Positions 10,772-26,202 of a DNA stretch of 64,000 nt are shown here, piece by piece. The stretch lies in contig NC_019684.1 of the NCBI RefSeq assembly GCF_000316645.1, forward strand, positions 6,571,031-6,635,030, in the 5' to 3' direction. Numbering within the stretch: the stretch's first letter is position 1; every line of letters starts with the position of its first letter. Source of the stretch: Nostoc sp. PCC 7524 (lineage in GTDB: Bacteria > Cyanobacteriota > Cyanobacteriia > Cyanobacteriales > Nostocaceae). The position numbers were made by a program, and so were the translations under genes. Under the pieces are notes generated by a model. The model did no database searches. It was not told the origin of the DNA and was given only the letters and a program-made list of their open reading frames with translations.

Positions 10772-11368
10772 ATGAAATTACTAAAAGACAATTCTACTAA
10801 ACAGTTTACCAAACTGGTGGGTATAGTTGGAGCGAGTGTAGCGATCGCAGTTACTCTTTATCCCCAAATCAACCAGCCAGCAACAGCTAAAACAATCACT
10901 CAAAATCCGCCATCAGAGACTACTAACCCACAAAACCAGCTAAATCAAATTGATAAGTTATTTGTACTCGAAGCGACTCAAGCCGGAATTGCAGAAATCG
11001 AAATGGCAAAACTAGCATTACAAAAGTCTCAGAATAATAGCATTAGACAGTATGCCCAGCAGATGATCAAAGATCATACAGATGCTAATCAAGAATTAAC
11101 CCAGTTAGCCACCCAAAAAGGTATTACTCCCCCAACTAATACAAGTCCCAGATATCAAGCTATAATTGCCCAACTATCACAATTATCCGATGCCAATTTT
11201 GACCAAGCGTATAAAGACGAAGCTGGCATTAATGGACATATGGAAAATCTGATTATTCATAGCCGACAAATACAGCTAGGCCAAGACCAAGACTTGAAAG
11301 CCCTTGCAGCCAAAAACATCCGCCTCATAGATGCACACTTGCAAATGATTGATGCGCTATCAAAGTAG
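10772..11368 (+). CDS. Secreted DUF4142 ferritin-like protein
   Basis: 198 residues with an N-terminal signal sequence (LVGIVGASVAIAVTLYP) and a C-terminal DUF4142 four-helix domain starting at KLFVLEATQAGIAEIEMAKLALQKS. Typical helices include RQYAQQMIKDHTDANQELTQLA and the final HMENLIIHSRQI...DAHLQMID segment with repeated His/Glu. DUF4142 proteins are periplasmic and of uncertain function. It is followed by a strong bidirectional terminator. Confidence 0.75.
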   Translation: MKLLKDNSTKQFTKLVGIVGASVAIAVTLYPQINQPATAKTITQNPPSETTNPQNQLNQIDKLFVLEATQAGIAEIEMAKLALQKSQNNSIRQYAQQMIKDHTDANQELTQLATQKGITPPTNTSPRYQAIIAQLSQLSDANFDQAYKDEAGINGHMENLIIHSRQIQLGQDQDLKALAAKNIRLIDAHLQMIDALSK

Positions 11369-11424
11369 TATGAAGTATAGAACAGATAGGTTGTTATCTG
11401 TTATCGGTCATAAAAAGCCAAATT

Positions 11425-11450
11425 AACTCTCTTATATTCATAAGAGAGTT
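11425..11450. terminator. Bidirectional terminator hairpin
   Basis: AACTCTCTTAT (11425-11435) and ATAAGAGAGTT (11440-11450) pair perfectly around a 4-base loop, between two convergent genes ending at 11368 and 11479. Confidence 0.75.
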
Positions 11451-11478
11451 GAATTAGTTAATTCTGAGCAGCTAGTCC

Positions 11479-13224
11479 CTAGAATCGGAATGTAGTCCGA
11501 ACAACACCTGTATAGATGGTATCGTTATTACTGTTATGTTCTGGGTTAAATATGACAATTAACCCTGGTGTAATCGAGATATTACTATTAACTTGGTAGC
11601 GATACAGAGCTTCTAAATGGAAAGATGTATCTGTATCTTCACGCCGAGCAGTAGTAGGAGTTATAACAGCAGGGCCAAAGTCATTACTGCTAACTTTTGG
11701 TGGTTGTCCAAAAATTAACCCGCCCAAATTCCCCTTTTTACCCAAGTCGGGAAAAGCTAAAGTTACAGCCCAATTCCAAATGTCTGCTTGATCACCACGA
11801 TTCACATTTGTACCAGAACTAACCTCAGCGATCGCTTGAGTATATCCCACCCATCCAGAAAGAATAAATTGGGGATTGAAAATATAGCTAGTTTGTAAAC
11901 CGTAATGGTTGGCGGAAGTCGCAACCCCAGCACCAAAGGGAGTATTAGCAAAGGTACTACCATAAGCACCAGAAACCGTCACATCTCCAGCCCCACCACT
12001 CAGGTAAGAATGGGCATAGCTTAAACCCAGAGTAAAGTTTTTATTTGGTCGGAATTCTAACTGCGCCAATGCTCCATAACTACCATCAAATAAGCCTCTA
12101 CCAGGTGTAGGCTCATTGCCTCGTCTAGCAATATATCCCCCCGACAAGGTGACAGCATCACTCAACTTAAAAATAGCACTGATTCCTGAACCTATATTAC
12201 TCCCAGAACCAGTGTTACTGGCGCGATAAATGGGAGAGAAGCGACCAAACCGTGAAATTGCACCGGTGGGAGCTGATGCTAACAGAGGGTTAATCGTATT
12301 GAAGTTATCGTAAAACTCCCCACCAATGGCATCAATAATGACATTGAGTCTCTCACCTACAGGAAAGCGATAGAATAACTTACCTAACTGAACACTGTTA
12401 TCCAAGTTATTAGTTGAGTCCCACCCTAAGCGACTCATATTAGTGCCTGTAACTGGAGCATTAAAAGCTGTGGTGTTGGTAGCTTCTAGACGAGCAAACA
12501 AGCGGTCTTTGCCAGTAAAGCTAGAGACTAAATTTAAGCGGACGCGATCGCTAAAAATAGCATTATCTTGTAGATCCCTACCTGCGGCTCCATAGGCGTT
12601 AGCTCTAGCATTTTCTCGCGCAGTTCCCGCCGGTTGAGCATTAATAGTTCGCCATTGATCAGAGTTTAAAGCTCTATCTCCACCAAACACACTCCCCAGA
12701 GTCAAAATTACCTCTGCATTCAACTTGGTAGTGGCAGAAAATTGTTGACTTTCTAAGGTTGCGGTACGTCCTTCTAAAGCATCAACTCTTCCTCTGAGTT
12801 CTGTTAATCCTTCTGCGAACTCTTCTTGCAATCTTTGCAGGGTGGCTAAGTCTTCTTTAGTAACTAAATCCGCCGTGCTTGTCCCAATCAGTTCGTTAAT
12901 CCGATTCAAGCAAGCATTCAACCCAGCCGCAAACTCATAGCGAGTCATAGCGCGATTACCCCGGAAAGTGCTGTTGGGATATCCAGCGATACAACCATAA
13001 CGCTCAACTAACGATTGCAACGCTTGGAAAGCCCAATCTGTCGGTTGCACATCAGATAGTTGCGAAACAGATGTCATCTGACTCATCGATGAGTTATCAC
13101 CTACATCTTTTTGTGTTTTAACGTCTCCTGCTACCGGAGATGCTGATACAACTTGAGCCATGATCACATTCACTCCCAGCAGCATCGGAGCGACATACAA
13201 AGACTTCCATACCATGTTTGACAT
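11479..13224 (-). CDS. SLH-OprB family outer membrane porin
   Basis: 581 residues from the ATG ending at 13224 (a TTG-initiated frame would reach 13254 but runs into the operator palindrome). Order of parts: signal peptide; an SLH domain (VQPTDWAFQALQSLVERYG, then FRGNRAMTRYEFAAGLNACLNRI) that binds peptidoglycan-linked polymer; a coiled coil (residues ~115-165); and a long beta-barrel of the OprB/carbohydrate-selective porin type ending in aromatic Phe (TTFRF). Its promoter region carries the TACCAAC-CTA-GTTGGTA palindrome 25 bases before the start. This suggests it is regulated with the adjacent binding-protein, TonB and ModA genes, perhaps to admit oxyanions. Confidence 0.88.
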   Translation of the reverse strand: MSNMVWKSLYVAPMLLGVNVIMAQVVSASPVAGDVKTQKDVGDNSSMSQMTSVSQLSDVQPTDWAFQALQSLVERYGCIAGYPNSTFRGNRAMTRYEFAAGLNACLNRINELIGTSTADLVTKEDLATLQRLQEEFAEGLTELRGRVDALEGRTATLESQQFSATTKLNAEVILTLGSVFGGDRALNSDQWRTINAQPAGTARENARANAYGAAGRDLQDNAIFSDRVRLNLVSSFTGKDRLFARLEATNTTAFNAPVTGTNMSRLGWDSTNNLDNSVQLGKLFYRFPVGERLNVIIDAIGGEFYDNFNTINPLLASAPTGAISRFGRFSPIYRASNTGSGSNIGSGISAIFKLSDAVTLSGGYIARRGNEPTPGRGLFDGSYGALAQLEFRPNKNFTLGLSYAHSYLSGGAGDVTVSGAYGSTFANTPFGAGVATSANHYGLQTSYIFNPQFILSGWVGYTQAIAEVSSGTNVNRGDQADIWNWAVTLAFPDLGKKGNLGGLIFGQPPKVSSNDFGPAVITPTTARREDTDTSFHLEALYRYQVNSNISITPGLIVIFNPEHNSNNDTIYTGVVRTTFRF

Positions 13225-13248
13225 TTGCCTCACACCTGAACAACTTGT

Positions 13249-13265
13249 TACCAACCTAGTTGGTA
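13249..13265. promoter_or_regulatory. Operator-like palindrome 1 (TACCAAC-CTA-GTTGGTA)
   Basis: Perfect 7-3-7 inverted repeat 25 bases upstream of the porin start. It is one of five copies of TACCAA-N5-TTGGTA, all confined to 13.25-23.10 kb. Confidence 0.75.
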
Positions 13266-13388
13266 TAAAAATAAATTAATATACATTATTAGCTGTAAAA
13301 AGTAGTTTTTGCTACTAATTTACATAGAGAGATATTTTTGATGCGATCGCTCAATTGTTGCCATTCTCTGACTTAATGGATTGATTTA

Positions 13389-13405
13389 TACCAACCTAAT
13401 TGGTA
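13389..13405. promoter_or_regulatory. Operator-like palindrome 2 (TACCAA-CCTAA-TTGGTA)
   Basis: 6-5-6 inverted repeat in the divergent intergenic region, 135 bases before the binding-protein gene at 13540. Same motif as palindrome 1. Confidence 0.75.
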
Positions 13406-13539
13406 AAGTATTGAAGTCTATCAAATAACCTGTGTTCCTTCTCAGACAGGGCTTTAAATCTCAGATTAATTACTACTTGAGTGTTATTCACCAGAAAATC
13501 AAGCAGTAGTTATGAATATTGCGTGATCATATACCAACC

Positions 13540-14484
13540 ATGAAAAAGCAGTTTTGTGCCTTTTCATTGATAGCTTGTGCTGTCAATGTTACATTACCAA
13601 CCCCAGTATTTGCCGTTACTTTATATGGTGCTGGTAGTTTGCGAAATAGCCTCACGGAAGTAACACAAGCTTTTACAGCAGAGTATGGCATTCCTGTAAC
13701 TACATACTTTGGACCTTCAGGTTTGACGCGAGCCAAAATAGAAGATGAATTATCTAGCAATGTTAAAACCGCAGATGTCTTTGCCAGTGCTGATTTAGGA
13801 AATCCCCAACAACTATTTCAACAAGGGTTGAGTCATCCTGTCCAAAATTTCACTAGCAATCGTATGGTTGCTGTTGTCAAACCAGGGTTAGCTGGCGTGA
13901 CATCAAATAACCTCTTGGACTTCCTGCTTAATCCCAACATCAAAATAGGCACATCAACACCACTAGCTGATCCTTCTGGAGACTACGCCTGGCAGATATT
14001 CGAGAAAGCCGATGTGATTCAACCAGGTAGTTCTCAAATTCTCAAAGACAAAGCCTTGCAATTAGTAGGTGGGAATCCCTCTGCACCACCAGTCCCCACT
14101 GGAGAAAATAATCTCCTTTACTTCCTGAAAACAAATCCAACGGCAGATATTTTCTTAGCCTATTACACCAGTGGTAAAACTGCTCAAGAACTAGAAGCAG
14201 GCCAGGATTTACAAATAGTAGAGTTACCTGATTATTTAGCTACTAAAGCTGATTATGGTTTAACTATATTGAAAAATGCTAATCCCGACGGTGAGAAATT
14301 AGCTGCATATATTCTCTCACCAAAAGGGCAATCAATTCTAGCGAAGTATGGATTTAGTAGTCCTTCTACCTCTATTCCAGAACATCAGAGTGCGTATGGT
14401 ACTGTACTAGCTTTAAGTGTGGCTTTTGCCATTCATAAAAAGTTATCTGTTACTAAAAAATCAACGGTTACAAGCAAAGTTTAA
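13540..14484 (+). CDS. ModA/WtpA-like periplasmic oxyanion-binding protein with PEP-CTERM-like tail
   Basis: 314 residues from the ATG at 13540 (an in-frame TTG at 13519 is less likely). A signal peptide (FCAFSLIACAVNVTLPTPVFA) precedes an SBP_bac_11-type fold: VTLYGAGSLRNSLTEVTQAF with the oxyanion-contacting Ser, FGPSGLTRAKIE, ADVFASADL, and a distal GTSTPLADPSGDYAWQIFEKA block. This is the molybdate/tungstate-binding protein superfamily, but it is divergent from the ModA at 19689-20519. After the domain comes IPEHQSAYG, a hydrophobic stretch and a Lys-rich end, very like a PEP-CTERM exosortase signal with His in place of the second Pro. No permease or ATPase gene is adjacent. Confidence 0.8.
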   Translation: MKKQFCAFSLIACAVNVTLPTPVFAVTLYGAGSLRNSLTEVTQAFTAEYGIPVTTYFGPSGLTRAKIEDELSSNVKTADVFASADLGNPQQLFQQGLSHPVQNFTSNRMVAVVKPGLAGVTSNNLLDFLLNPNIKIGTSTPLADPSGDYAWQIFEKADVIQPGSSQILKDKALQLVGGNPSAPPVPTGENNLLYFLKTNPTADIFLAYYTSGKTAQELEAGQDLQIVELPDYLATKADYGLTILKNANPDGEKLAAYILSPKGQSILAKYGFSSPSTSIPEHQSAYGTVLALSVAFAIHKKLSVTKKSTVTSKV

Positions 14485-14528
14485 CCATAGCTTTTATAGA
14501 AAAACTATCAATCTCTCAAGGAGTAACT

Positions 14529-15329
14529 GTGAATCAAATTATTTGGCAAAATATCAACAAACTCAGCCTTTCTTTTATAGCAGGGCTAGCATCTAGTATT
14601 TTACTTGCTCATCCTACTCATGCTGCTACATTAGGTCAAAATTTAATTATTAATGGTGATGCAGAACAAGGATTAGGAGATCCAATAGGTGATGCAGTAG
14701 GTGCTGACATTCCTGTTATCCTTGGTTGGAATACCAGTGGTGATTTTAGTGTTATCAAATATGGAGCTACAGGTTTTAACTTTGTCAATGCCTTTGGTAA
14801 TTTAGTCAGTGTGACTTTACCTGCTGTTGGTGTTCCAGGCCCAAGCAATAGAGGTCAGAATCTCTTTTTTGGTGGTGCTAGTAGAGCCTCTTCTAGTGCT
14901 TCCCAAGATATGGATGTCAATAGTCTCGCTTCAGTGATTGACACAGGTAAAGCAGCCTTTGATTTGAGTGGTTGGTTAGGTGGATATGATGATGATGATG
15001 ATAGTGCAACACTTAATATTACTTTCCTTGATCAGACAAACCAATCTCTAGGAATCGCTAGTATTTCTGCGCCAAATGCAGCAGAGAGAAATAACGTTAC
15101 AGGTTTATTTCTGCGAGAAACTAATGGTTTTGTTCCTGTCGGGACACGTCAAATTAATGTAGTTCTGAATGCCAATCATGCAGGAGGTCGAGTCAATGAT
15201 TCCTATGCTGATAACCTCTCCTTAGTAATTACTCAAGTACCAGAACCAACAATCTCAGGTTTATCATTGCTGATTGCATCAGGTTTTATAGCTGGAAAAT
15301 TGCGGAGAACCCGCCGCCAATTTAATTAA
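14529..15329 (+). CDS. PEP-CTERM sorting-domain protein
   Basis: 266 residues. GTG at 14529 is chosen because AAGGAG lies about 8 bases upstream. The signal peptide (LSLSFIAGLASSILLAHPTHAA) is followed by a strand-rich domain starting NLIINGDAEQG, resembling secreted carbohydrate-binding-like or DUF642-like modules, with an Asp-rich loop (GGYDDDDDSA) that may bind Ca2+. The C-terminus VPEPTISGLSLLIASGFIAG followed by RRTRR is a classical PEP-CTERM exosortase signal. It lies between the binding-protein gene and the TonB-receptor gene on the same strand, so a surface role in the same uptake process is plausible but unproven. Confidence 0.8.
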   Translation: MNQIIWQNINKLSLSFIAGLASSILLAHPTHAATLGQNLIINGDAEQGLGDPIGDAVGADIPVILGWNTSGDFSVIKYGATGFNFVNAFGNLVSVTLPAVGVPGPSNRGQNLFFGGASRASSSASQDMDVNSLASVIDTGKAAFDLSGWLGGYDDDDDSATLNITFLDQTNQSLGIASISAPNAAERNNVTGLFLRETNGFVPVGTRQINVVLNANHAGGRVNDSYADNLSLVITQVPEPTISGLSLLIASGFIAGKLRRTRRQFN

Positions 15330-15346
15330 TTTTTGCAGTTGAATCT

Positions 15347-15404
15347 GTTCGTAGTAAGGACTTTAGTCCTGAATTACTAAGCACTAAAGTGCTTAGTACA
15401 AACT
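15347..15404. repeat. Dispersed palindromic repeat (two hairpins)
   Basis: AGGACT-TT-AGTCCT at 15357-15370 and a perfect 11-bp-arm palindrome TACTAAGCACT-AA-AGTGCTTAGTA at 15375-15398. Strings of this type recur in Nostoc genomes. It sits directly before the TonB receptor gene and could attenuate or terminate upstream transcription. Confidence 0.65.
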
Positions 15405-15425
15405 TTTTGTGTGTGAGGAATTGTT

Positions 15426-17900
15426 TTGAAGAAGTTTTCATTGTTTTGTTTAATTAGCAGTAGTGCATTATTTGTATTTCAAGAATCTGTAAAAGCACAG
15501 GCTCAGGTTACATCTACATCCCAAGTTTCTAATGTTGAAATTCCTCACGTTAATGAATTAGCTACAGTAGTTACTACTTCTACACCTTTATTAGCACAGG
15601 TGTTAAAGGTTACAGGAGTTAAAATTGACTCCACTACTACAGGAATTGAGCTTGTTTTAGAAACATCTACAGGCATTTTACCTGAGCCAATCACTACAAC
15701 TGAAAATAATACATTAATTATAGATATTCCTAATACAGTCTTAACCTTATCTGATGGTAACGAATTTCGCCGTGAAAATCCTGCGCCGGGAATTAAATTA
15801 GTTAGCATTACCCAAAATGATGCTAATAATATTCGAGTCAGCATCACAGGAGAAACATCTGTACCGACAGCACAAATTATTTCCAGTGACAATGGGTTGA
15901 TATTGAGCGTTATTCCTAGTGAAAATCAGCCGGATATAGAACTGACGGTTACAGGTAATCCCAATACAGCCACAGTTAACAAAACAGACACTCCATTACA
16001 AGATTTACCTTTCTCCGTACAAGTATTTCCACAACAGCTAATTCAAGACCAACGAGCCTTAAATGTTGGTGAAGCCGTGAGAAATATCAGTGGCTTTGCG
16101 CTATCAGGACGAGGGGGAGGACGCAATGAGTCTTCCTTGGTGACACGAGGATTCACGGCTGATCAGTTTCGGGATGGTTTCAGTGAAGGTAACAATGCTA
16201 ATCGAGTCTTTACAGAAGTCTCTAACTTAGAACGTATTGAAGTCTTGAAAGGCCCGACTGCAACTCTGTATGGTCAGTCTGAACCTGGGGGAATTGTGAA
16301 TTTGGTGACGAAAAGACCTCTGGCGAAACCATATTATCAGGCTGAATATATTGGTGGTAGTTTTGGTTTTAATCGGGGAAATTTGGATTTCACAGGGCCT
16401 TTGGATAGCAATCGTAATGCTAAATATCGCTTAAATCTCGCCTATGAAAATACTGATAGTTTCCGTGAAGGAGTTGAGACAGAACGCTTCTTTATTGCAC
16501 CGAAGTTGACCTTTAACCTCAGTTCTCAAACCACACTCAGCGTTTTTGGCGAATATCTCGAAGATAGCCGACCGGTAGATTTTGGTTTAGTTGCTGTTGG
16601 TAACAGCGTGGCTGATATTCCCATCAGTCGTTTTCTTGGCGATCCTACCCGCAAAAACGACGTTTATCAACGACGTGCTTACATTTTCTTAGACCACAAT
16701 TTTAGTGATAATTGGTCAATTAGTAGTGCTTTTCGTACTACATCCAGCGACCAAGATTTTTCTGCAATTTTCGGCAGAGGTAATGCTTTACAATTTAATA
16801 ATCAAGTATTACCCCTACAAGCGCAAAATAATGACCTGTCTTTTAATACCAATACTTGGCAAACAAATCTAGTTGGTAAATTTAATACAGGCTCAATTAA
16901 ACATACAGCCTTAATTGGCTTTGAGTGGGGTAATGAACGGAGAACAACAGTAGTAGAAAATGCCAACGCTGGCTCGATTAATATTTTTCGACCCGTTTAT
17001 AGATTTTCTGTAGGTCGTTTTAATACAATCAGAAACCAAGACGAAGAAACTAATTTATTTGGCATTTATTTACAAAATGAAATTGCCGTCACTGATAATT
17101 TAAAATTACTCTTAGGTGGACGTTTTGATACTGTTGATTTTGATTTGCAAGATAATCTGAATAATATAAAAAGTAGCACCTACAGCGATGCTTTTAGTCC
17201 ACGAATTGGCATTGTTTATCAACCAAGTAAACCAATTTCACTTTACGCCAATTTTAGCCGTTCTTTTGTCTCCCAATCTGGTAGTAGTTTTGATGGTACG
17301 CCATTTCAACCAGAGCGGGGAACTCAGTATGAAATAGGGGTAAAAGCTGACTGGTTTAGTGGTCGTCTTTCCTCAACTTTGGCATTTTACCAAATCACTA
17401 AAACTAATGTTTTAGTTACAGATCCCAATCGTCCTACCTTTTTTATTCAGACTGGTGAACAACGCAGTCGCGGTGTGGAATTGGATTTGGTGGGGGAAAT
17501 ATTACCAGGATGGAATGTAATTACATCTTACGCTTATACTGATGCCATCATTACTAATGATACGATATTTCCTGAAGGTAATCGCTTGGCGAATGTGCCG
17601 CGTAATGCTTTGAGTTTTTGGACAACTTATACAATTCCCCAAGGTGATTTACAGGGTTTAGGTTTTGGTACTGGAGTATTTTTTGCGGATGCTCGTTCAG
17701 GAGATTTAAATAATAGCTTTACTCTACCAAGTTATAGGCGTGTAGATGCTTCAATTTATTACAATTATCGAAATTTTCGAGCAGCTTTGAATATCAAAAA
17801 TCTGTTTGATACCCGTTATTTTGAATCTGCTCAAAGTAGAACCGCAATATTTCCTGGTGCGCCGTTGACTATTCTGGGGACAATTTCTTTACAGTTTTGA
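15426..17900 (+). CDS. TonB-dependent outer membrane receptor with AMIN domain
   Basis: 824 residues; start TTG at 15426 preceded by GAGGAA. Order: signal peptide (to KAQAQ); AMIN domain about residues 58-155 (VLKVTGVKIDSTTTGIELVL...LIIDIPNTVL), typical of cyanobacterial receptors; plug domain about 180-300 (DLPFSVQVFPQQLIQDQ, LERIEVLKGPTATLYGQSEPGGIVNLVTKRP); and a 22-strand barrel ending in GTISLQF. It looks like FhuA-type siderophore receptors, which take up ferric hydroxamates. The immediate neighbours are oxyanion-binding proteins and Mop rather than iron genes, so a metallophore or Mo/V chelate substrate is a real alternative. No tonB-exbBD in the window. Confidence 0.88.
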   Translation: MKKFSLFCLISSSALFVFQESVKAQAQVTSTSQVSNVEIPHVNELATVVTTSTPLLAQVLKVTGVKIDSTTTGIELVLETSTGILPEPITTTENNTLIIDIPNTVLTLSDGNEFRRENPAPGIKLVSITQNDANNIRVSITGETSVPTAQIISSDNGLILSVIPSENQPDIELTVTGNPNTATVNKTDTPLQDLPFSVQVFPQQLIQDQRALNVGEAVRNISGFALSGRGGGRNESSLVTRGFTADQFRDGFSEGNNANRVFTEVSNLERIEVLKGPTATLYGQSEPGGIVNLVTKRPLAKPYYQAEYIGGSFGFNRGNLDFTGPLDSNRNAKYRLNLAYENTDSFREGVETERFFIAPKLTFNLSSQTTLSVFGEYLEDSRPVDFGLVAVGNSVADIPISRFLGDPTRKNDVYQRRAYIFLDHNFSDNWSISSAFRTTSSDQDFSAIFGRGNALQFNNQVLPLQAQNNDLSFNTNTWQTNLVGKFNTGSIKHTALIGFEWGNERRTTVVENANAGSINIFRPVYRFSVGRFNTIRNQDEETNLFGIYLQNEIAVTDNLKLLLGGRFDTVDFDLQDNLNNIKSSTYSDAFSPRIGIVYQPSKPISLYANFSRSFVSQSGSSFDGTPFQPERGTQYEIGVKADWFSGRLSSTLAFYQITKTNVLVTDPNRPTFFIQTGEQRSRGVELDLVGEILPGWNVITSYAYTDAIITNDTIFPEGNRLANVPRNALSFWTTYTIPQGDLQGLGFGTGVFFADARSGDLNNSFTLPSYRRVDASIYYNYRNFRAALNIKNLFDTRYFESAQSRTAIFPGAPLTILGTISLQF

Positions 17901-17978
17901 TGATATTAGAAATTGAGAAACCTGAATAAAAAATTATTCAGGTTTCTTATATTTTAGCTAGAGCTAAGGATTAAGAAT

Positions 17979-18188
17979 CTAGTCAATAGCTAATATTACA
18001 TCGCTTGCTTTTATAACCGCATAAACTTCTTTACCTTCAGCTAGTTGAAGTTTATCTGCTGATGACTTGGTAATAATTGATGTTACCTCAACTCCAGGTG
18101 CGATTTCTAGTGTTACTTCTGTGTTAACGGAACCAGGAATAACTTTCTTTACTGTACCTTTGAGAGCATTACGTGCGCTAACTTCCAT
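17979..18188 (-). CDS. Mop-domain molybdate-binding protein (molbindin)
   Basis: 69 residues that form one TOBE/Mop domain: SARNALKGTVKKVIPGSVNTEVTL, followed by ITSIITKSSADKL-type residues (VTSIITKSSADKLQLAEGKEVYAVIKASDV). Molbindins bind molybdate or tungstate in oligomers and buffer intracellular oxyanion. The gene is convergent with the TonB receptor gene. A perfect TGATAA-CAA-TTATCA palindrome lies 37 bases upstream of its start. It strongly supports a Mo/W theme for the region. Confidence 0.9.
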   Translation of the reverse strand: MEVSARNALKGTVKKVIPGSVNTEVTLEIAPGVEVTSIITKSSADKLQLAEGKEVYAVIKASDVILAID

Positions 18189-18224
18189 ATTTTAAATTTT
18201 CCTATATTTTTTAACTATTATTGA

Positions 18225-18239
18225 TGATAACAATTATCA
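18225..18239. promoter_or_regulatory. Palindrome upstream of the Mop gene
   Basis: TGATAACAATTATCA, 6-3-6 perfect inverted repeat. It differs from the TACCAA motif and from the classical ModE box. The AT-rich GATAA-type sequence could be a Fur-like or other operator. Confidence 0.4.
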
Positions 18240-18382
18240 CCATAAAAATCTATTTCTTTAGATATGAATTCTGCATTTCTTTACTATTTCTTAAGACAGT
18301 AAAATACTAAACATAATTTTTTAGGAATAGTTAACATTCAGAAATCTGAATAATGAATTATTTCAGACTTCTGGGACGTTTG

Positions 18383-18952
18383 CTATGAATGAGAATTACG
18401 GCGTTTTTGCTTTGTCCACAATATCAAACCAGATCCGACAACGCCAGCGATCGCACCAAATAACAAGTGCATCATTAAAGGATATACATATCCATTGCCA
18501 AACACACCATAACCCCAAATCCCTGCAACGCTAATAACAATGCGCGTGAGAGGTTTAATCAGATGAACTAACCCAGCTATCACCGCCCAAAACCATACTT
18601 GTTTACGCCATTTTTTGAGCGCATAGGCTAGATCCAACAATTCCCCAACTACAAGTAAGAAGAACCAATCAAAAGGATCGTTTCTCACACCAAACAACCA
18701 CGAAAAACCAGCAGCACTTAACCCAGTAATCGAAGCCGCACCCAAGAAGGAAGTAGATAGCCTAGTAGCAACAAGTGGTGTTAGCCAAATCAGTCCGCGC
18801 CACCCTGGTAACTTTAAAGGTAAACGCAGATTTGCTTGCACTACAGCAATCAGCAACCCCAACCCTACCAAAGCCAAAATTTCCCACCATTTGACTTGGT
18901 GTACACCCTTAATATCTACGGATGATATCTTTGGGAGCCATTTCGTATTCAT
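18383..18952 (-). CDS. Membrane protein resembling an ECF transporter S component
   Basis: 189 residues with about five or six hydrophobic helices: WWEILALVGLGLLIAVVQANL, then a LPLKLPGWRGLIWLTPLVATRLS block, then small-residue helices (GAASITGLSAAGFSWLFG). Size, topology and the Pro/Gly-rich region after helix 1 recall substrate-binding S components of energy-coupling factor transporters. No EAA loop of a ModB permease is visible. Its start overlaps the end of the GIDDTD-protein gene by 44 bases, and both follow modA on the same strand, so it is likely the membrane part of an uptake system. The family assignment is by eye only. Confidence 0.5.
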   Translation of the reverse strand: MNTKWLPKISSVDIKGVHQVKWWEILALVGLGLLIAVVQANLRLPLKLPGWRGLIWLTPLVATRLSTSFLGAASITGLSAAGFSWLFGVRNDPFDWFFLLVVGELLDLAYALKKWRKQVWFWAVIAGLVHLIKPLTRIVISVAGIWGYGVFGNGYVYPLMMHLLFGAIAGVVGSGLILWTKQKRRNSHS

Positions 18953-19685
18953 AGTTTTCCTCTCCGGTTACTTGTAAATCTTCACTAGCCTTGACTACCA
19001 GCATCACGGCTTTTCCATCTATCAATACTGGACGAGGCCAAGGACTGGTTCTAATGGTGCTATTGTCAGGTATCTTAATTTTGCTATCGTCCGATATCTG
19101 TCCACCTGCTAAATCTTGAATGCAGTCAATACTGATGCTTTGATAAAGTTGACTGGCTGTATAAACGCCCGAAAGTTCATACAAACCAGGAAGCCAAATA
19201 AATCGCCCATCATTCTCAGTTTTTCGCAAACCCACCGCCGCTAAAGCCCCGATAATTCCTTGACGAGTCCCAGTTAAACCTTCTAAAAATAGTCCTGCTT
19301 GAACGGCTACGCAATATGCTTGTGACTGAGTAAGGACTGTTTCTTTGGCTTGTTTACTAAAAGCTTGAACTGTCAGATTCACCTGATCCCAATTCGCTAC
19401 ACATAAGCCTACATCTGATCCTGCCTCACTATATTTCATGAGGTATTCTCGGCAGAAGTCAGTCAGAAAAGTCAGCTTTTCTGGGGTAGTTTCTACCATG
19501 ATGCAGGCAGAACTATTATGTGAAGTATAGGGAATTTCGGGACTGAGAAAGAGTTGATGGCGACTGATACTAATGGTTTGAGCCAACTGTTGCTCAACAA
19601 TTTCCTTTCTCAGGTGTCGTGCTAAATGACCTGTAGCACCACTGGTGATATTGTCAGTATCATCTATACCAATGAGTAAACGCAT
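18909..19685 (-). CDS. 'GIDDTD' protein, TiaS N-terminal-like, in a modA operon
   Basis: 258 residues beginning MRLLIGIDDTDNITSGATGHLAR. The IGIDDTD plus T-G pattern is the hallmark of the N-terminal domain of archaeal TiaS (tRNA-Ile2 agmatidine synthase) and relatives. The later segment QAGLFLEGLTGTRQGIIGALAAVGLR also fits that superfamily. The zinc-ribbon and OB parts of full TiaS appear absent. The gene starts 3 bases after the modA stop and overlaps the next gene by 44 bases, so it belongs to a tight operon with a molybdate-binding protein and a membrane protein. Biochemical role here is unknown. Confidence 0.6.
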   Translation of the reverse strand: MRLLIGIDDTDNITSGATGHLARHLRKEIVEQQLAQTISISRHQLFLSPEIPYTSHNSSACIMVETTPEKLTFLTDFCREYLMKYSEAGSDVGLCVANWDQVNLTVQAFSKQAKETVLTQSQAYCVAVQAGLFLEGLTGTRQGIIGALAAVGLRKTENDGRFIWLPGLYELSGVYTASQLYQSISIDCIQDLAGGQISDDSKIKIPDNSTIRTSPWPRPVLIDGKAVMLVVKASEDLQVTGEENYEYEMAPKDIIRRY

Positions 19686-19688
19686 ATA

Positions 19689-20519
19689 CTATTGAAGTAC
19701 GCTGTAGCCGTGATTTTTGTAAAGAGGTTTTGCTTGTTCGCTGAAGAGAAACTGCACAAAGGACTTAGCAGCAGCTTGGTTTTTACTATTATTTAAAATC
19801 GCCACTGGATAAACGACTGGAGAGTGAGAGGCTTCAGGGGCGATCGCTAAAATCTTCACTTTATTTGATGCTCTCACAGTGGTATCATGAACAATCCCCA
19901 CATCAACGTTACCAGATTCCACAAAGTTGACGATTTCTAAAGCACTTCTGGTATAGACCAATTTAGGTTTAACTTGTTCTGTAATACCCAGATATTTAAA
20001 AACCTCCTCAGCATACACCCCTAGAGGTACACTACGAGGTTCACCGATGGCGATTCTTTTCACAGTCGGTTTTGTCAAATCTTGAAAGCTAGAAATACCC
20101 GTAGTATTTTTAGCGGTGATTAAAGCTATCCTACTTTTGATGAGATTTTTACGAGTTCCTGGTAACAACAATCCTTTTTGTTGCAACTCATTCATATTCT
20201 TGTTCGAGGCGGAGATAAAAATATCTATATTTGCGCCTTGTTCAATTTGTCGTTGCAAAACACCAGAGGCCGCAAAGTTGTAAGTAATATTAATATTCGG
20301 TTGCTGTTGTTGATAAGCTTTTTGAATATCCTCTAATACTGGTTTCAAACCTGCACCTGCTGATACTGTCAGAGTCACCGTATTAGGCTGTTGGGCAATA
20401 CTCGGAGCTAAATTTGGTACAAGCCCTGCTATCACTGTCAATGCTACAGTAACTACTACCAAGCTTAAGTATAAAAAACGACGACCTAGATAATTACTCA
20501 ATAATTTCATTTCAGACAT
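19689..20519 (-). CDS. modA: ModA, molybdate/tungstate ABC transporter binding protein
   Basis: 276 residues: signal peptide (LGRRFLYLSLVVVTVALTVIAGL) and a complete ModA domain: VTLTVSAGAGLKPVLEDIQ with the oxyanion Ser, NFAASGVLQRQIEQGANIDIFIS, RIALITA, AIGEPRSVPLGVYAEEVF, and SGNVDVGIVHDTTV. These are the usual oxyanion contacts and hinge motifs of ModA. No modB or modC follows; instead it is followed by the GIDDTD and ECF-S-like genes. Two operator palindromes (20693 and 20809) lie upstream in the divergent intergenic region. An alternative ATG three codons downstream (20510) is possible. Confidence 0.9.
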   Translation of the reverse strand: MSEMKLLSNYLGRRFLYLSLVVVTVALTVIAGLVPNLAPSIAQQPNTVTLTVSAGAGLKPVLEDIQKAYQQQQPNINITYNFAASGVLQRQIEQGANIDIFISASNKNMNELQQKGLLLPGTRKNLIKSRIALITAKNTTGISSFQDLTKPTVKRIAIGEPRSVPLGVYAEEVFKYLGITEQVKPKLVYTRSALEIVNFVESGNVDVGIVHDTTVRASNKVKILAIAPEASHSPVVYPVAILNNSKNQAAAKSFVQFLFSEQAKPLYKNHGYSVLQ

Positions 20520-20692
20520 CTAAAATTACCTACTCAGAAAATACCAAAAAAGTAGGTGTATAAATACATGAAAAACAATGTATTAGTAAATATTTTTGTT
20601 GTTCACATCATTGCTTGCGCCTAAAAGCTTTGTAAATAAAGAATTACAGCGAATAAAACAGTAAAAATGGAAATACCTTTTGTCATCATTTT

Positions 20693-20713
20693 TTTACCAA
20701 TTAGGTTGGTAAA
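20693..20713. promoter_or_regulatory. Operator-like palindrome 3 (TTTACCAA-TTAGG-TTGGTAAA)
   Basis: Perfect 8-5-8 inverted repeat, 174 bases upstream of the modA start. Confidence 0.8.
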
Positions 20714-20808
20714 GTTACATAGCCTGAGTCCTTATTCTGACAAATTGCTATCGAATTTCAAAAATCTGTAACAATAGTAACATTTTCATGAATTTAATTG
20801 CTATACCC

Positions 20809-20831
20809 TTTTACCAATAAAGTTGGTAAAA
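20809..20831. promoter_or_regulatory. Operator-like palindrome 4 (TTTTACCAA-TAAAG-TTGGTAAAA)
   Basis: Perfect 9-5-9 inverted repeat between modA and the rightward genes at 20973 and 21258. Confidence 0.8.
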
Positions 20832-20972
20832 ATCTCAGGTATTAGTATCCAGCTTGCGTTAGCCTGGCTTGAGATGAAATCAAAAGCCGCTACCTCCTCT
20901 CCTACTTGTGTGTTTGGCGCAGATGGACTATTTCCATCTGCCAATTTTCTTAAAAATGCAGAGATAAATAAT

Positions 20973-21239
20973 ATGAAAGAGCAATCTGATTTTCTCTCTA
21001 ATCTTTCTGACTTTCTCTATCCGCGCAGTTGTTATTACGGTCAGTTTAAACCAGAATACCTAGTATTCAACGCTAATCTTCAGGAGTTTGCCCAACGTGT
21101 GGGCTACATTAGCAGTCTGCAAACCAATGGTAAAATTTCTCCACAAGAAGCTTATGACCAAATCAAAACCCTGTGGAAACAATTGAAACGTGCGAAGAAG
21201 GAACTTGAAGCTACTTCAATCAATTTACAGAGTTTCTAA
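20973..21239 (+). CDS. Small DUF7219-like protein
   Basis: 88 residues from the ATG at 20973: MKEQSDFLSNLSDFLYP, then YYGQFKPEYLVFNANLQEFAQRVGYI and a helical Lys-rich C-terminus. I recognise this as a short protein common in heterocystous cyanobacteria and, I believe, filed as DUF7219, often found near nitrogen-fixation genes; this is from memory. It is followed by a 2OG oxygenase 18 bases later, so the two likely form an operon controlled by palindrome 4. Confidence 0.65.
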   Translation: MKEQSDFLSNLSDFLYPRSCYYGQFKPEYLVFNANLQEFAQRVGYISSLQTNGKISPQEAYDQIKTLWKQLKRAKKELEATSINLQSF

Positions 21240-21257
21240 ACCGAAAAAAGTATAAGT

Positions 21258-21941
21258 ATGCTCCAGTTAGATGCTATTCGTCAGACATCCATGCAGGAAG
21301 TTCCGTATCACTGGGCTGTGATTGAAAATCTATTGTCTCAAGAAGCTAGTTTGGAACTAGCAGCTAGCTTCCCCCAAGAAAATTTTCGCTTATCGGCTGG
21401 GGAAGGATACGGTTATCTCTGGGGCGAGATGTTGGCTAGTAGTGATGATATGGCTTTAATGTACAACTTTGGTGAACTCTGGCGAGAACGCATTGCTGAG
21501 GGAAGATTATCATCAGACTTGCATCACCTCAGTCACAATTGGCAGCAACTTATACAAGTATTATGGCAACCCCAATACCGTCAAGCACTAACACAGATGT
21601 CTGGAATCGAACTCAAAGACTGTGCAATGGTAATTGGCTTTCGTCGCTACAATGGGGGACATTTACACCGTCCACATACAGATGAACCATCCAAAGCTTT
21701 AACACATCTAGTCTTTTTTAATGAGCAATGGCCTATAGAGTGGGGTGGTTGTTTACGCATTCTTAAGGATGAACAACCTGAATCGGTGTATCAAGATATT
21801 CCCCCACTGAACAAATTGTCAGCAGTGATTGTGCGCTCCGATAATTCTTGGCATATGGTAACACCAGTGACATCCTCAGTATCACAGCCTAGGCTAGTTC
21901 TCAGGATTGCTTTTTTCCGTCATCCCAGTATTGGCTTCTAG
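21258..21941 (+). CDS. 2-oxoglutarate/Fe(II)-dependent dioxygenase
   Basis: 227 residues of the prolyl-hydroxylase-like 2OG-Fe(II) oxygenase superfamily. The iron triad is visible as H140-T-D142 in HRPHTDEPSK and the distal H199 in NSWHMVTPV. R212/R216 (PRLVLRIAF) is positioned to bind the 2OG carboxylate. The domain spans roughly 20-225. The substrate is unknown. It sits 18 bases after the DUF7219-like gene and ends directly against the stop codon of a convergent gene. Confidence 0.85.
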   Translation: MLQLDAIRQTSMQEVPYHWAVIENLLSQEASLELAASFPQENFRLSAGEGYGYLWGEMLASSDDMALMYNFGELWRERIAEGRLSSDLHHLSHNWQQLIQVLWQPQYRQALTQMSGIELKDCAMVIGFRRYNGGHLHRPHTDEPSKALTHLVFFNEQWPIEWGGCLRILKDEQPESVYQDIPPLNKLSAVIVRSDNSWHMVTPVTSSVSQPRLVLRIAFFRHPSIGF

Positions 21942-22316
21942 TCAGCTATTGAGTGCGTCGTTGTCTAGCCCAATTTCATCAATCTCAATTACCCAAGTGA
22001 CACCCAAATTAACTGGCGGAGTAACATTAATACTTGCTGCATTAGCAAATCGTTTTAACTTTTGAGTCAAATAGGGAATAGTTGTCATAATGTTCTGATA
22101 ACTTTCTATCTCAGGACAAATCATCACTAATACGAGAGTGCCACTTTGAATTTTGAAGTACCAATGACAACTTGCTAACAAAATTCGCGTTATGCGGTTA
22201 CAAGCTAGGAAGAATCTTTGTTTAATAGCTTCTTCAAGTTGTCTGAATAGTATTTCACTCAAGAGTGTAGTTTGATTTGAAGGCAAATCATCAGGATGAA
22301 TATCAGGCTGATTCAT
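21942..22316 (-). CDS. Hypothetical protein, 124 aa
   Basis: A soluble protein with alternating helix and strand content. FLACNRITRILLASCHWYFKI and LVLVMICPEIESYQNIM are the most ordered-looking stretches, and the C-terminus is acidic. No family recognised. Its stop is immediately adjacent to the stop of the convergent oxygenase gene. It might form a unit with the interrupted gene upstream (22455-22829), from which it is separated by the ancestral C-terminus of that gene. Confidence 0.55.
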   Translation of the reverse strand: MNQPDIHPDDLPSNQTTLLSEILFRQLEEAIKQRFFLACNRITRILLASCHWYFKIQSGTLVLVMICPEIESYQNIMTTIPYLTQKLKRFANAASINVTPPVNLGVTWVIEIDEIGLDNDALNS

Positions 22317-22454
22317 AAGAATAGAGAGTAGTGAATGGGGACTAGGGAAGAATGTCTATGGACTATTGACTAATAATCCAAAACAACTCTAACCATAAAT
22401 TCGGATAGTTTTGCTTCATCTGTGACATGGGATCTCGCAACAAATTTGTTGCAT

Positions 22455-22829
22455 TTAGGGACTTCCAGAAAATAAATTATCCAATTTACGAGAGAGAATA
22501 TTTTGATTTTTCCCCTGCTCCCTGCCCCCTGCCCCCCTGCTCACCACAGCGATTGTATATTTTTTTAGTTGGAAGTCCCTTAAACAGACAACCTCAACAA
22601 GCCCCAAGTATTCTGCTACTTCTTTGAGCAAATTTTTTTCCGCGATCGCAGCTGCCATTAATTGTTCAGGACAGTAAATTCCTACATATCTGGCATTGGG
22701 AAGAGACCCTTTTTTGAGTTGAGGAGTAATCACCTTGACATAACAGTGACGTATTACTTCCCAGACGCGGGGGTGAGTATGCTCAATAATTACATTAAAT
22801 TGTTGGGCTAAATCTTCTTCAGTAATCAT
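22455..22829 (-). pseudogene. Hypothetical gene with C-terminus replaced by a miniature insertion
   Basis: From the ATG at 22829 (preferred over a frame reaching 22889), about 83 residues read MITEEDLAQQFNVII...EYLGLVEVVCL. The remaining ~41 residues come from a 122-bp element at 22458-22579. Removing the element and one copy of its TTA target duplication restores an open frame that continues NATNLLRDPMSQMKQNYPNL and about 10 more residues to a TAG at 22363-22365, giving about 113 aa. The present product is therefore a chimera with a foreign tail. The family is unknown; it lies next to a TACCAA operator (23074) that may control it. Confidence 0.75.
22458..22579. mobile_element. 122-bp MITE with GGGACTTCCA inverted termini
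   Basis: Left end GGGACTTCCA (22458-22467), right end TGGAAGTCCC (22570-22579), flanked by TTA on both sides (22455-22457 and 22580-22582), consistent with a 3-bp target duplication. It carries no ORF and contains a CCCCTGC low-complexity run. Similar GGGACTTCCA-bounded sequences are, from memory, frequent in Nostoc. Confidence 0.8.
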
Positions 22830-23375
22830 TATTGACTCCAATAAATATAAAGCTAAAAACAGTTCTGTTCTCTGATTTCTGCACATCAAGACAGATACTT
22901 AACTATGCACAAATAGAGGTGCGGCGTATTCAGATGAATGAAATCATGATTGGCAATCAAAACGAAATTTACCCACCTGTCCACATGGGTTGGTATTTTG
23001 CTCAGGGCTAGATTGCTTGTCTATCAAGCATGAAAACCGAAAGTGAGTGAATAAAACTGTATCAATCGTATCATTTTACCAATTTAGTTGGTAAAAATCA
23101 TAAATAAATTTAGTCCTCTCTTGATTTCTTGTAATACGCCACACGAATAATCAAGGCTTCAAACCCTTATCAGAAGATGATTTTCATAAATTACTCAAAA
23201 ATTTCTAAAACTTTTCTTCCTTGGCGCAAGTAAATTAGCAAGCTGTATGTTATGCTTGACGTATAGGGAATCAAAAAAGCAAAAGTATGAGGTAAATTCC
23301 AGCCCTTTACTGTTGCCTTAGCACAGACAAGTAAATCCGCCACGGCTTTGTGTAAATGTAGCAAGAAATCAGCTA
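22830..23375. promoter_or_regulatory. Intergenic region with operator 5
   Basis: Divergent region of about 545 bases between the interrupted gene and the XRE regulator. It includes the palindrome at 23074-23096 and a weaker imperfect repeat ACCCA...TGGGTTGGTA around 22971-22994. No gene seen. Confidence 0.5.
23074..23096. promoter_or_regulatory. Operator-like palindrome 5 (TTTTACCAA-TTTAG-TTGGTAAAA)
   Basis: Perfect 9-5-9 inverted repeat between the interrupted gene (leftward) and the XRE-regulator gene (rightward), 280 bases before the latter. It may be autoregulatory. Confidence 0.8.
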
Positions 23376-24509
23376 ATGAAGCAGGATAGCGGCCTCCTTA
23401 ATAACTTGAAATCAATCAGAACGCGCTTAGGGATGAGCCAGCAAGATTTGGCAAACATCGCTGGTGTGACTCGTCAGACAATTAGTGGTGTAGAGTCGGG
23501 ACAATATGCTCCCTCAGTGGCGATCGCACTTCGCATAGCTAAGGCTCTTGGTTGTCAAGTTGAGGATCTATTCTGGCTAGATCAAGACTTACCGGAAATC
23601 GAAGCCATACTTACAAAACCTGTACCCACTAATCAATCTCTGCGCCTGAGTTTGGCAAGGGTAGGGGGACAATGGATAGCTTATCCCTTATTGGGTAAAG
23701 ATGCCTTTCGTCAAGATATGATTCCGGCAGATGCGGAGGGTATAAGCCAAACAGGTAGCGGTAAAGTGCAGGTGAGGCTGTTAGATGATAACTTGGCAGC
23801 ACTGCATAACACAGTGGTGATTGCTGGTTGTGCGCCTGTAATTGCTCTGTGGGCAAGAGCTACCGAACGCTGGCATCCACAACTGCGAGTGCATTTTACC
23901 TTTGCCAACAGCATAGATGCGTTGCAGAGTCTATGCAGAGGTGAAGCACACATTGCCGGGATGCACTTGTATGATCCCAAAACTGGGGAGCATAACGTGC
24001 CGTTTGCCCGTGAAATCTTGGCAGGAAGAGAAGCTGTGTTAATTACTCTGGGCTTATGGGAAGAAGGGCTGTTAGTCCCATCCGGTAATCCCAAGGGTTT
24101 CAAAACACTCAGCGATGTAGTAGAAGCACAAGCAACCATTGTCAATCGCGAAGTTGGTGCTGGTAGTCGAATGCTCTTAGAACAACAACTGCGACAAGAA
24201 AACATACCGTTTGAAGCAGTCAAAGGATTTGAGCAGATTGCCACTAGCCATCAAGATGTTGCCCAAGCTGTCGCACTAGGGTTTGTGGATGCAGGTATTA
24301 GTACAGCATCCGTTGCTGCTACCTTTGGCTTGGGTTTTGTACCTCTGCATCAATCAAGATACGATTTAGTAATTCTCAAGGAATATTTAGAAGAAGCACC
24401 TATACAACAGTTGTTGAGTACATTAGGTCATCGCCTGGTTCACTCACAACTAGAAGTTCTCGGTGGCTATGACATTACGAAAATTGGGGAAGTTGTAGCA
24501 ACTGTTTAG
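23376..24509 (+). CDS. XRE-family regulator with molybdate-like periplasmic-binding sensor domain
   Basis: 377 residues. An N-terminal Cro/C1-type HTH spans about 6-68 (IRTRLGMSQQDLANIAGVTRQTISGVESG). After a linker of ~60 residues, a PBP_like domain (ModA/TupA relative, about 105-370) includes VVIAGCAPVIALWA, INREVGAGSRMLLEQQL-type (IVNREVGAGSRML) and FVDAGISTASVAATFGLGFVPL. This architecture is known from oxyanion-responsive regulators. It precedes nifH2 on the same strand by 316 bases. From memory, Anabaena variabilis has VnfR repressors that silence V-nitrogenase genes when Mo is present; whether this is one of them was not checked. It is the best candidate to bind the TACCAA palindromes. 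Confidence 0.8.
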   Translation: MKQDSGLLNNLKSIRTRLGMSQQDLANIAGVTRQTISGVESGQYAPSVAIALRIAKALGCQVEDLFWLDQDLPEIEAILTKPVPTNQSLRLSLARVGGQWIAYPLLGKDAFRQDMIPADAEGISQTGSGKVQVRLLDDNLAALHNTVVIAGCAPVIALWARATERWHPQLRVHFTFANSIDALQSLCRGEAHIAGMHLYDPKTGEHNVPFAREILAGREAVLITLGLWEEGLLVPSGNPKGFKTLSDVVEAQATIVNREVGAGSRMLLEQQLRQENIPFEAVKGFEQIATSHQDVAQAVALGFVDAGISTASVAATFGLGFVPLHQSRYDLVILKEYLEEAPIQQLLSTLGHRLVHSQLEVLGGYDITKIGEVVATV

Positions 24510-25800
<1,291 letters not shown>

Positions 25801-26202
25801 ATTTAATGTTGGCTACTAGCTACTAAATCTAGATAAGCAGAGGGTAGGTTATTCCTACCCCCCTATCTACAAGCATTCATCAAAATATGGAGGTACTCTA
25901 TAGCTGAAATGAAGTTTTGGGTTTTTAACTTTACCGTCTTTTCCGCCATTTTTTCATTGTTTGAATACCGAATTAGTACCTTATTTTAGCTTTCTTCTCT
26001 GCTAAGTTGGTTATTTAATTTTCAGCAAATGGGAAACAAAATTTTCCCATTGCTGTTTTTTACTATAACAATAATTTGGGTGATTTAATCTACCCAATAA
26101 TTTATTAACCTCTTATTTTTCCTGCTAAATTTGTCATATATGTTTGAATCCTCAAATAGCCTTCTTGACTAATAAAATTTGGATAAATCGAGTAGCAATC
26201 TG
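25801..26202. other. Intergenic region after nifH with two hairpins
   Basis: GGGTAGG-TTATT-CCTACCC at 25842-25860 is a compact stem without a T tract. A second hairpin at 26024-26060 is the likely terminator (separate entry). The rest is AT-rich without a gene. Confidence 0.55.
26024..26060 (+). terminator. Rho-independent terminator
   Basis: AGCAAATGGGAAA pairs with TTTTCCCATTGCT (one unpaired base), followed by GTTTTTTAC. It ends rightward transcription from nifH. Confidence 0.65.

Follow-up and report, generated by a model that had tools for sequence, protein, structure and literature searches.

Which protein reads a palindrome that recurs along one stretch of the Nostoc sp. PCC 7524 genome, and which genes does that palindrome join? 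The stretch (NC_019684.1, positions 6,571,031 to 6,635,030; 64,000 nucleotides, hereafter the window) carries TACCAA-N5-TTGGTA next to genes for ModA-type binding proteins and an outer membrane porin and close to a nitrogenase reductase gene. A preliminary description of this DNA had proposed one regulon and had named an XRE-PBP protein encoded in the window as the best candidate binder. We conclude that the palindrome is probably the operator of a different regulator, encoded outside the window, in which a putative ribbon-helix-helix (RHH) N-terminus is joined to a TOBE domain (RHH-TOBE). The window genes beside the palindrome probably belong to the molybdate-responsive regulon of that protein. 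This conclusion is drawn from the sequence of the site and the genes that accompany it.

An exact scan of the window found TACCAA-N5-TTGGTA five times, at 13249-13265, 13389-13405, 20695-20711, 20812-20828, and 23077-23093, and no sixth copy in the 64 kb, in agreement with the preliminary description. The longer perfect arms that it reported for the last three copies are present as well: 8 bp in copy 3 and 9 bp each in copies 4 and 5. All five copies are intergenic, as it had also stated, given the likely start codons. The longest mechanical frame of the porin would overlap copy 1, because its TTG start at 13254 lies inside that copy; the ATG at 13224 is likelier. When up to two mismatches were allowed, the window held 14 matches, compared with 4.03 in 100 dinucleotide shuffles (standard deviation, 2.21; maximum, 11). 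No exact palindrome arose in 40 first-order Markov simulations of 64 kb. The window contains 27 perfect 6-N5-6 palindromes, and TACCAA is the half-site in five of them, while every other half-site occurs once. The spacing is strict: at spacers 0 to 29 other than 5, the TACCAA/TTGGTA half-sites occur a total of three times in the window.

In the whole genome (6.72 Mb), there are seven exact copies, versus one for a reversed-pattern control. With up to one mismatch, the counts are 65 versus 26. Apart from the five copies in the window, the sixth lies just before a second modA (L001), in the gap between that modA and the divergent gene of a TOBE protein, and the seventh lies within a coding frame (L002). 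Six of the seven exact copies are therefore in gaps adjoining ModA-type, TOBE, porin, or VnfR2/VnfH-linked genes. The preliminary description had set many copies near unrelated genes as the outcome that would speak against a regulon, and for exact copies the scan gave only these seven. Its proposal of one shared site is also borne out by the same gene classes carrying the site in other Nostocales. Among 80 loci with VnfR relatives (1.39 Mb, a few of them overlapping), which were chosen by VnfR, there were 59 exact sites, versus 0 to 4 at any other spacer between 0 and 13 and none with the reversed control. Genes starting within 700 bp of these 59 sites included vnfR (25 sites), p22455 (20), Mop (7), ModA (5), the SLH porin, p21942, and RHH-TOBE paralogues (4 each), the 2OG oxygenase (3), and DUF7219 and the ModA-like protein SBP2 (1 each). 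In this count, one site may score for both sides of its gap, and VnfR and its neighbors are overrepresented because the loci were picked by VnfR. One of the loci has modBC about 106 bp downstream of an exact site. In the Nostoc sp. PCC 7524 genome itself, an additional site with two mismatches lies 93 bp before modBC, and a search of the genus that allowed two mismatches found a site within 300 bp of 7 of 12 modBC genes. The pair of sites before the SLH porin and SBP2, 138 to 140 bp apart, also occurs in two other genomes, G211 and G206. The consensus of 103 distinct copies is TTTTACCAA-[T/C][T/A][A/T][A/T][A/G]-TTGGTAAAA.

The position of the site points to RHH-TOBE as its reader. The RHH-TOBE gene (G000:C2:2986346-2986792, minus strand, 149 amino acids) lies back-to-back with the other modA. 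It is present in 185 of 208 genomes of the family (E <= 1e-15) and in 31 of 292 genomes of the phylum (E <= 1e-20). At 22 of 30 family loci, an exact palindrome begins at -22 from its start codon. We extended the set to 54 loci by adding 23 from a phylum-wide search and that of genome G210. An exact site begins at -22 to -33 in 30 of these; the number rises to 34 with up to one mismatch and to 38 with up to two. This holds in distant lineages: L271-L274, four loci of 48% identity that come from other families of the order, carry it exactly at -23 or -24, and L270 (56% identity), which belongs to a different order, carries it with one mismatch at -22. Only 28 of the 54 fetched stretches contained a modA homologue, and the exact site is kept at several loci where none was found (e.g., L203, L208-L210, L215, L217, and L222). 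Within the window's genus, 12 of 13 genomes carry an exact site in the chromosomal modA/RHH-TOBE gap, and G210 has one with a single mismatch; this holds with or without VnfR. Six same-genus genomes have no XRE-PBP/VnfR match at E <= 1e-60; in five of them the site in this gap is exact, and in the sixth a one-mismatch site precedes the RHH-TOBE gene.

We asked what kind of protein this gene encodes. Its C-terminus is one TOBE stretch (residues 84 to 144; 53.5 bits, above the curated cut-off), which aligns with the solved molybdate-binding structures of ModG (1h9j; 4.4e-25) and MopII (1gug; 3.3e-11) and only weakly with the ModE structures 1h9r and 1o7l (E about 0.8 to 1). The N-terminus may adopt a ribbon-helix-helix fold. 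Against one Pfam-positive RHH_1 protein from the same genus it scored 80, while the best of 2,000 shuffles reached 52, and hhalign gave an E value of 1.1e-5 and a probability of 82 for the same pair. Among sub-threshold Pfam matches of 37 homologues, up to an E value of 10, were TraY (10), RHH_1 (8), and NikA-like (4), which we take to be families of the RHH fold, but also unrelated families, such as zf-CRD (27). TOBE was found in all 37, and no winged-helix family was among the 23 Pfam families listed for them. In these homologues, hand-picked among the matches listed (120 of 967), 31 of the first 43 residues are identical throughout. Database names among the same 120 matches of 967 were "TOBE domain-containing," "molybdopterin-binding," and "transporter."

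It is conceivable that the palindrome acts instead as an RNA hairpin near start codons or that a third, unlinked protein reads it. The few bases between palindrome and start codon at RHH-TOBE would suit a hairpin, and so would changes in both arms such as TACTAA-N5-TTAGTA (L263). However, distances vary from -22 to about -300, and genes on both strands are served. An RNA loop would be expected to vary in length, whereas the spacer is held strictly at 5 bp. No Rfam family reached its gathering threshold in window positions 11000 to 26000, and one regulator gene accompanies the palindrome at most loci. We give this explanation hardly any credence.

Within genus g18 (L262-L267), the site at the RHH-TOBE start drifts to TACTAA/TACTCA-N5-TTAGTA and similar, partly symmetric forms. 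The drift is accompanied by a change of RHH-TOBE residue 5 from E to D; D is also found in lineages with the TACCAA site.

The XRE-PBP protein of the window is the other obvious candidate. With HTH_3 and PBP_like domains next to vnfH, it is a VnfR-type regulator, and the position of its gene corresponds to that of VnfR2 in A. variabilis. If it read the palindrome, it would act as a repressor of the set in the presence of molybdate. A dimer of the Cro/C1 type would also fit a 17-bp dyad, which counts in favor of this alternative. A site with up to one mismatch is found upstream of 33 of 41 VnfR2-like genes at a near-constant distance, mostly at -271 to -350. According to passages of PMC4284476, VnfR2 (ava4055) is one of two Mo-dependent repressors of ava4025-vnfDGKEN in A. 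variabilis (Pratte et al. 2013), and VnfR1 binds in vitro upstream of the ava4025 promoter. VnfR is widespread: it was found in 112 of 208 family genomes (E <= 1e-60), including all 34 with vnfG above the cut-off. The window's genome has one VnfR and a 34% match that covers the HTH part only.

However, the site does not follow VnfR. Same-genus genomes that lack VnfR still have it in the modA/RHH-TOBE gap. In G211, which has an A. variabilis-like layout with two VnfR-type genes (L181 and L182; vnfG assigned by Pfam, the other vnf labels by eye), a search allowing two mismatches found no site in the 1 kb ahead of the ava4025-like gene, of vnfR1, or of vnfR2. Among 103 VnfR upstream regions, a site with up to one mismatch is present in all 29 with a divergent p22455 gene, versus 9 of 74 without it. 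On these three observations we reject VnfR2 as the sole binder, and we consider it very unlikely that the set is repressed by the VnfR2-like protein through the palindrome. The choice of XRE-PBP as the best binder is thus not supported, since the site is kept in VnfR-less genomes and tracks the RHH-TOBE start in distant lineages and p22455 at VnfR loci. More likely, the vnfR2-like locus belongs to the regulon and the XRE-PBP protein itself is not the reader of the site. A further comparison points the same way and counts little: VnfR genes from genomes scored as RHH-TOBE-negative (one from each of 16 of the 17 such genomes with VnfR, G213 being left out) all lack a site with up to two mismatches within roughly 1 kb upstream. 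It is confounded by VnfR type, because these VnfR proteins are 62 to 74% identical and belong to a type in which the site is mostly missing from RHH-positive genomes as well; below 75.5% identity, only 5 of 62 VnfR upstream regions carry it, regardless of genome. An enumeration of dyads in front of 63 other VnfR genes singled out no clear candidate for VnfR's own operator.

Window positions 23211 to 23375 and 42 VnfR2-like leaders share conserved blocks, GCAAG-AAA, TATAGGGAATC, and TAAATCCGC-CACGGCTTT, between the palindrome and vnfR2. The blocks persist where the palindrome is missing, and they are candidates for a promoter, a VnfR operator, or a leader RNA. In G211, between vnfR1 and vnfH, there are a 235-amino-acid frame with a VnfD-like start (L182:8754-9461) and a TOBE/RHH-TOBE-like fragment (L182:9929-10126), apparently partial duplicates.

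We then compared the number of exact sites per genome with the presence of each regulator. The mean was 5.82 in genomes with both RHH-TOBE and VnfR (n = 95), 3.60 with RHH-TOBE only (n = 75), 1.82 with VnfR only (n = 17), and 3.11 with neither (n = 18). We scored RHH-TOBE as present in the 170 genomes with a match at E <= 1e-40. The negatives comprise 20 listed ones plus 15 genomes with weaker matches; 3 unlisted ones were omitted, and the comparison covers 205 of 208 genomes. That the number is highest where both regulators occur favors VnfR2 as a reader. It also suits a shared word, in which RHH-TOBE would read the palindrome everywhere and VnfR2 would do so too where present, placing Mo transport and vnf control on one operator; several of the window sites do lie near VnfR2. 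Against a shared word, the G211 counterparts of published VnfR targets have no site, and the extra sites may instead be targets in the linked loci of p22455/vnfR2, Mop, and porin. We regard the shared word as unlikely and read the higher counts in VnfR-positive genomes as additional targets in VnfR-linked loci.

Several observations weigh against RHH-TOBE as the reader. In the genome counts, RHH-positive and RHH-negative genomes without VnfR hardly differ (3.60 versus 3.11; p = 0.42), while among RHH-positive genomes those with VnfR have more sites than those without it (5.82 versus 3.60; p = 2e-7). The genome counts are thus weak without VnfR, and our argument for the binder therefore rests on the position of the site. 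Position is not uniform either: at 16 of the 54 RHH-TOBE loci, allowing two mismatches still gives no site. In 8 of these 16 the same place holds a site with three mismatches and in 3 a site with four, but in the other 5 the best match within 150 bp (four mismatches) lies away from the start. Only 1 of the 12 same-genus modBC genes has an exact site. At vnfR2, more than 100 bp (in the window, about 130 bp) separate the palindrome from the conserved promoter-like block downstream of it, which is far for simple repression of vnfR2; because of this distance, and because the block is kept without the palindrome, p22455 may be the target there. The RHH assignment is also uneven. Two other RHH_1 proteins aligned poorly with the N-terminus (scores reached by 33 and 562 of 2,000 shuffles), no Pfam family above its cut-off and no solved structure matched it, and the protein's own genome gave no RHH_1 match at E <= 1e-5.

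We nevertheless favor RHH-TOBE and propose the following mechanism for it. Cytoplasmic molybdate (or tungstate) would be bound by the TOBE part. The loaded protein would then occupy two half-sites 11 bp apart and repress its own gene and modA. The same repression would act in the window at modA, the ModA-like protein, the SLH porin, the DUF7219/oxygenase pair, and the p22455/vnfR2-vnfH region. At low Mo, the whole set would be derepressed together, bringing in outer-membrane, periplasmic, and alternative nitrogenase-reductase functions. Binding, ligand, and the repressing sign are thus what we infer, as is the side of each divergent gap that would respond. A wider proposal is more tentative and could go either way: RHH/TOBE fusions may be an as yet unnamed class of molybdate sensor in heterocyst-forming cyanobacteria, with one regulon that comprises the SLH porin, perhaps the TonB receptor, at least two ModA-type proteins, and vnfR2-vnfH, and that stands above the VnfR switch between Mo- and V-nitrogenase.

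The candidate targets in the window are as follows. Putative operator copy 1 (13249..13265) lies some 25 bp ahead of the ATG (13224) at which the SLH-domain OprB porin (11479..13254, minus strand; NCBIfam "iron uptake porin") probably starts. Copy 2 (13389..13405) is upstream of SBP2, the ModA-like periplasmic binding protein (13519..14484, plus strand, starting at TTG 13519 or ATG 13540; Pfam SBP_bac_11; NCBIfam NF002920, 623 bits versus a cut-off of 470). Copies 3 and 4 are both inside the divergent modA/DUF7219 gap. Copy 3, with its arms at 20693..20713, has its 17-bp core 176 bp upstream of the window modA (19689..20519, minus strand; TIGR01256, 195 bits versus a cut-off of 62.5), one of two ModA matches in the genome. 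A weak copy with two mismatches (20542..20558), 23 bp upstream of the modA start, is possibly a second modA operator. Copy 4 (20809..20831) is upstream of a pair of plus-strand genes, DUF7219 (20823..21239, likely ATG 20973) and, by domain search, a 2OG-Fe(II) oxygenase-like protein (21258..21941). These four gene assignments of the preliminary description stand. For copy 5 (23074..23096) its assignment was incomplete: the copy lies not only before the XRE-PBP, vnfR2-like gene (23376..24509, plus strand), whose ATG is 299 bp from the start of the core, but also between it and the divergent p22455 (22455..22889, minus strand). The product of p22455, whose presence predicts the palindrome, matched no Pfam family above its cut-off. 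The nitrogenase reductase said to lie beside the regulon is indeed there: the vnfR2-like gene is directly upstream of a VnfH/NifH2-like gene (24826..25800, plus strand; profile match).

Other genes lie among these. A TonB-dependent siderophore-type receptor gene (15426..17900, plus strand) is downstream of the SBP2 gene and may be on the same transcript. Its position next to SBP2 could be a pointer to uptake of chelated Mo. In G207, G206, and G211, no homologue of the receptor is labeled beside SBP2. A Mop/molbindin-like protein with one TOBE domain (69 amino acids; 17979..18188, minus strand) has homologues at some other loci with the site upstream. Downstream of the window modA (18383-19685) are a TiaS/methanogenesis-marker-11-like protein and a membrane protein with a sub-threshold ABC_cobalt match. 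The window's genome has no AnfG/VnfG match, and the vnfR2-like and vnfH/nifH2-like genes (23376-25800) look like an orphan part of a V-nitrogenase system. At loci with VnfR relatives, members of a family of about 300 to 390 amino acids, 2 to 9 kb from VnfR, have an exact palindrome about 90 to 390 bp upstream (L013, L016, L019, L020, L022, L025, L030, L035, L037, L045, L066, and L075). Both of the members tested proved to be HSDR_N proteins (N-terminus of type I restriction R); the others were assigned by their first residues.

How does this system compare with those already described? Mo supply helps set the use of Mo- versus V-nitrogenase in cyanobacteria. In passages of the review PMC4284476, the Mo-dependent regulators are VnfR1/VnfR2 and a presumed "modE homolog." The XRE-PBP protein resembles VnfR2 in joining an HTH to a PBP-like domain directly upstream of vnfH. 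The palindrome differs from the VnfR system in being missing at VnfR-target counterparts in G211 and present in VnfR-less genomes; the window's genome, moreover, lacks a vnfG match. In A. variabilis, Mo and W repress a Mo-transport gene, and passages of PMC4284476 ascribe this to an unnamed "modE homolog just upstream of modA," a regulator that is only presumed (Zahalak et al. 2004), with no operator or regulon named for it there. This repression fits the RHH-TOBE locus. RHH-TOBE occupies this place in G211, directly upstream of modA, so the "modE homolog" is probably the RHH-TOBE gene. The presumed regulator would thereby be tied to a specific gene with an unusual domain make-up, to an exact candidate operator, and to candidate targets that include outer-membrane proteins. 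Passages of PMC4284476, PMC6645180, PMC3627308, PMC6147048, and PMC4148955 describe neither the operator nor the RHH-TOBE regulator, although the operator may have been published earlier, and no RHH fusion to TOBE/Mop was among the entries listed in literature searches on ribbon-helix-helix proteins. Like the ModE of E. coli, RHH-TOBE is predicted to be a one-component, molybdate-responsive mod repressor with a TOBE/Mop ligand domain. It would work like ModE, yet by its domain content it is not ModE: its N-terminus is RHH-like and no winged helix (ModE_N) was found, it has one TOBE stretch, and its candidate operator is TACCAA-N5-TTGGTA. ModE carries two TOBE/Mop domains. RHH-TOBE has an N-terminal strand-helix-helix sequence, a possible likeness to the RHH regulators MetJ, Arc, CopG, and NikR. 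NikR likewise joins an RHH domain to a metal-sensing domain, and the half-sites of Arc are one helical turn apart, as in the palindrome; the RHH-TOBE protein is set apart from these regulators by its TOBE/Mop ligand domain.

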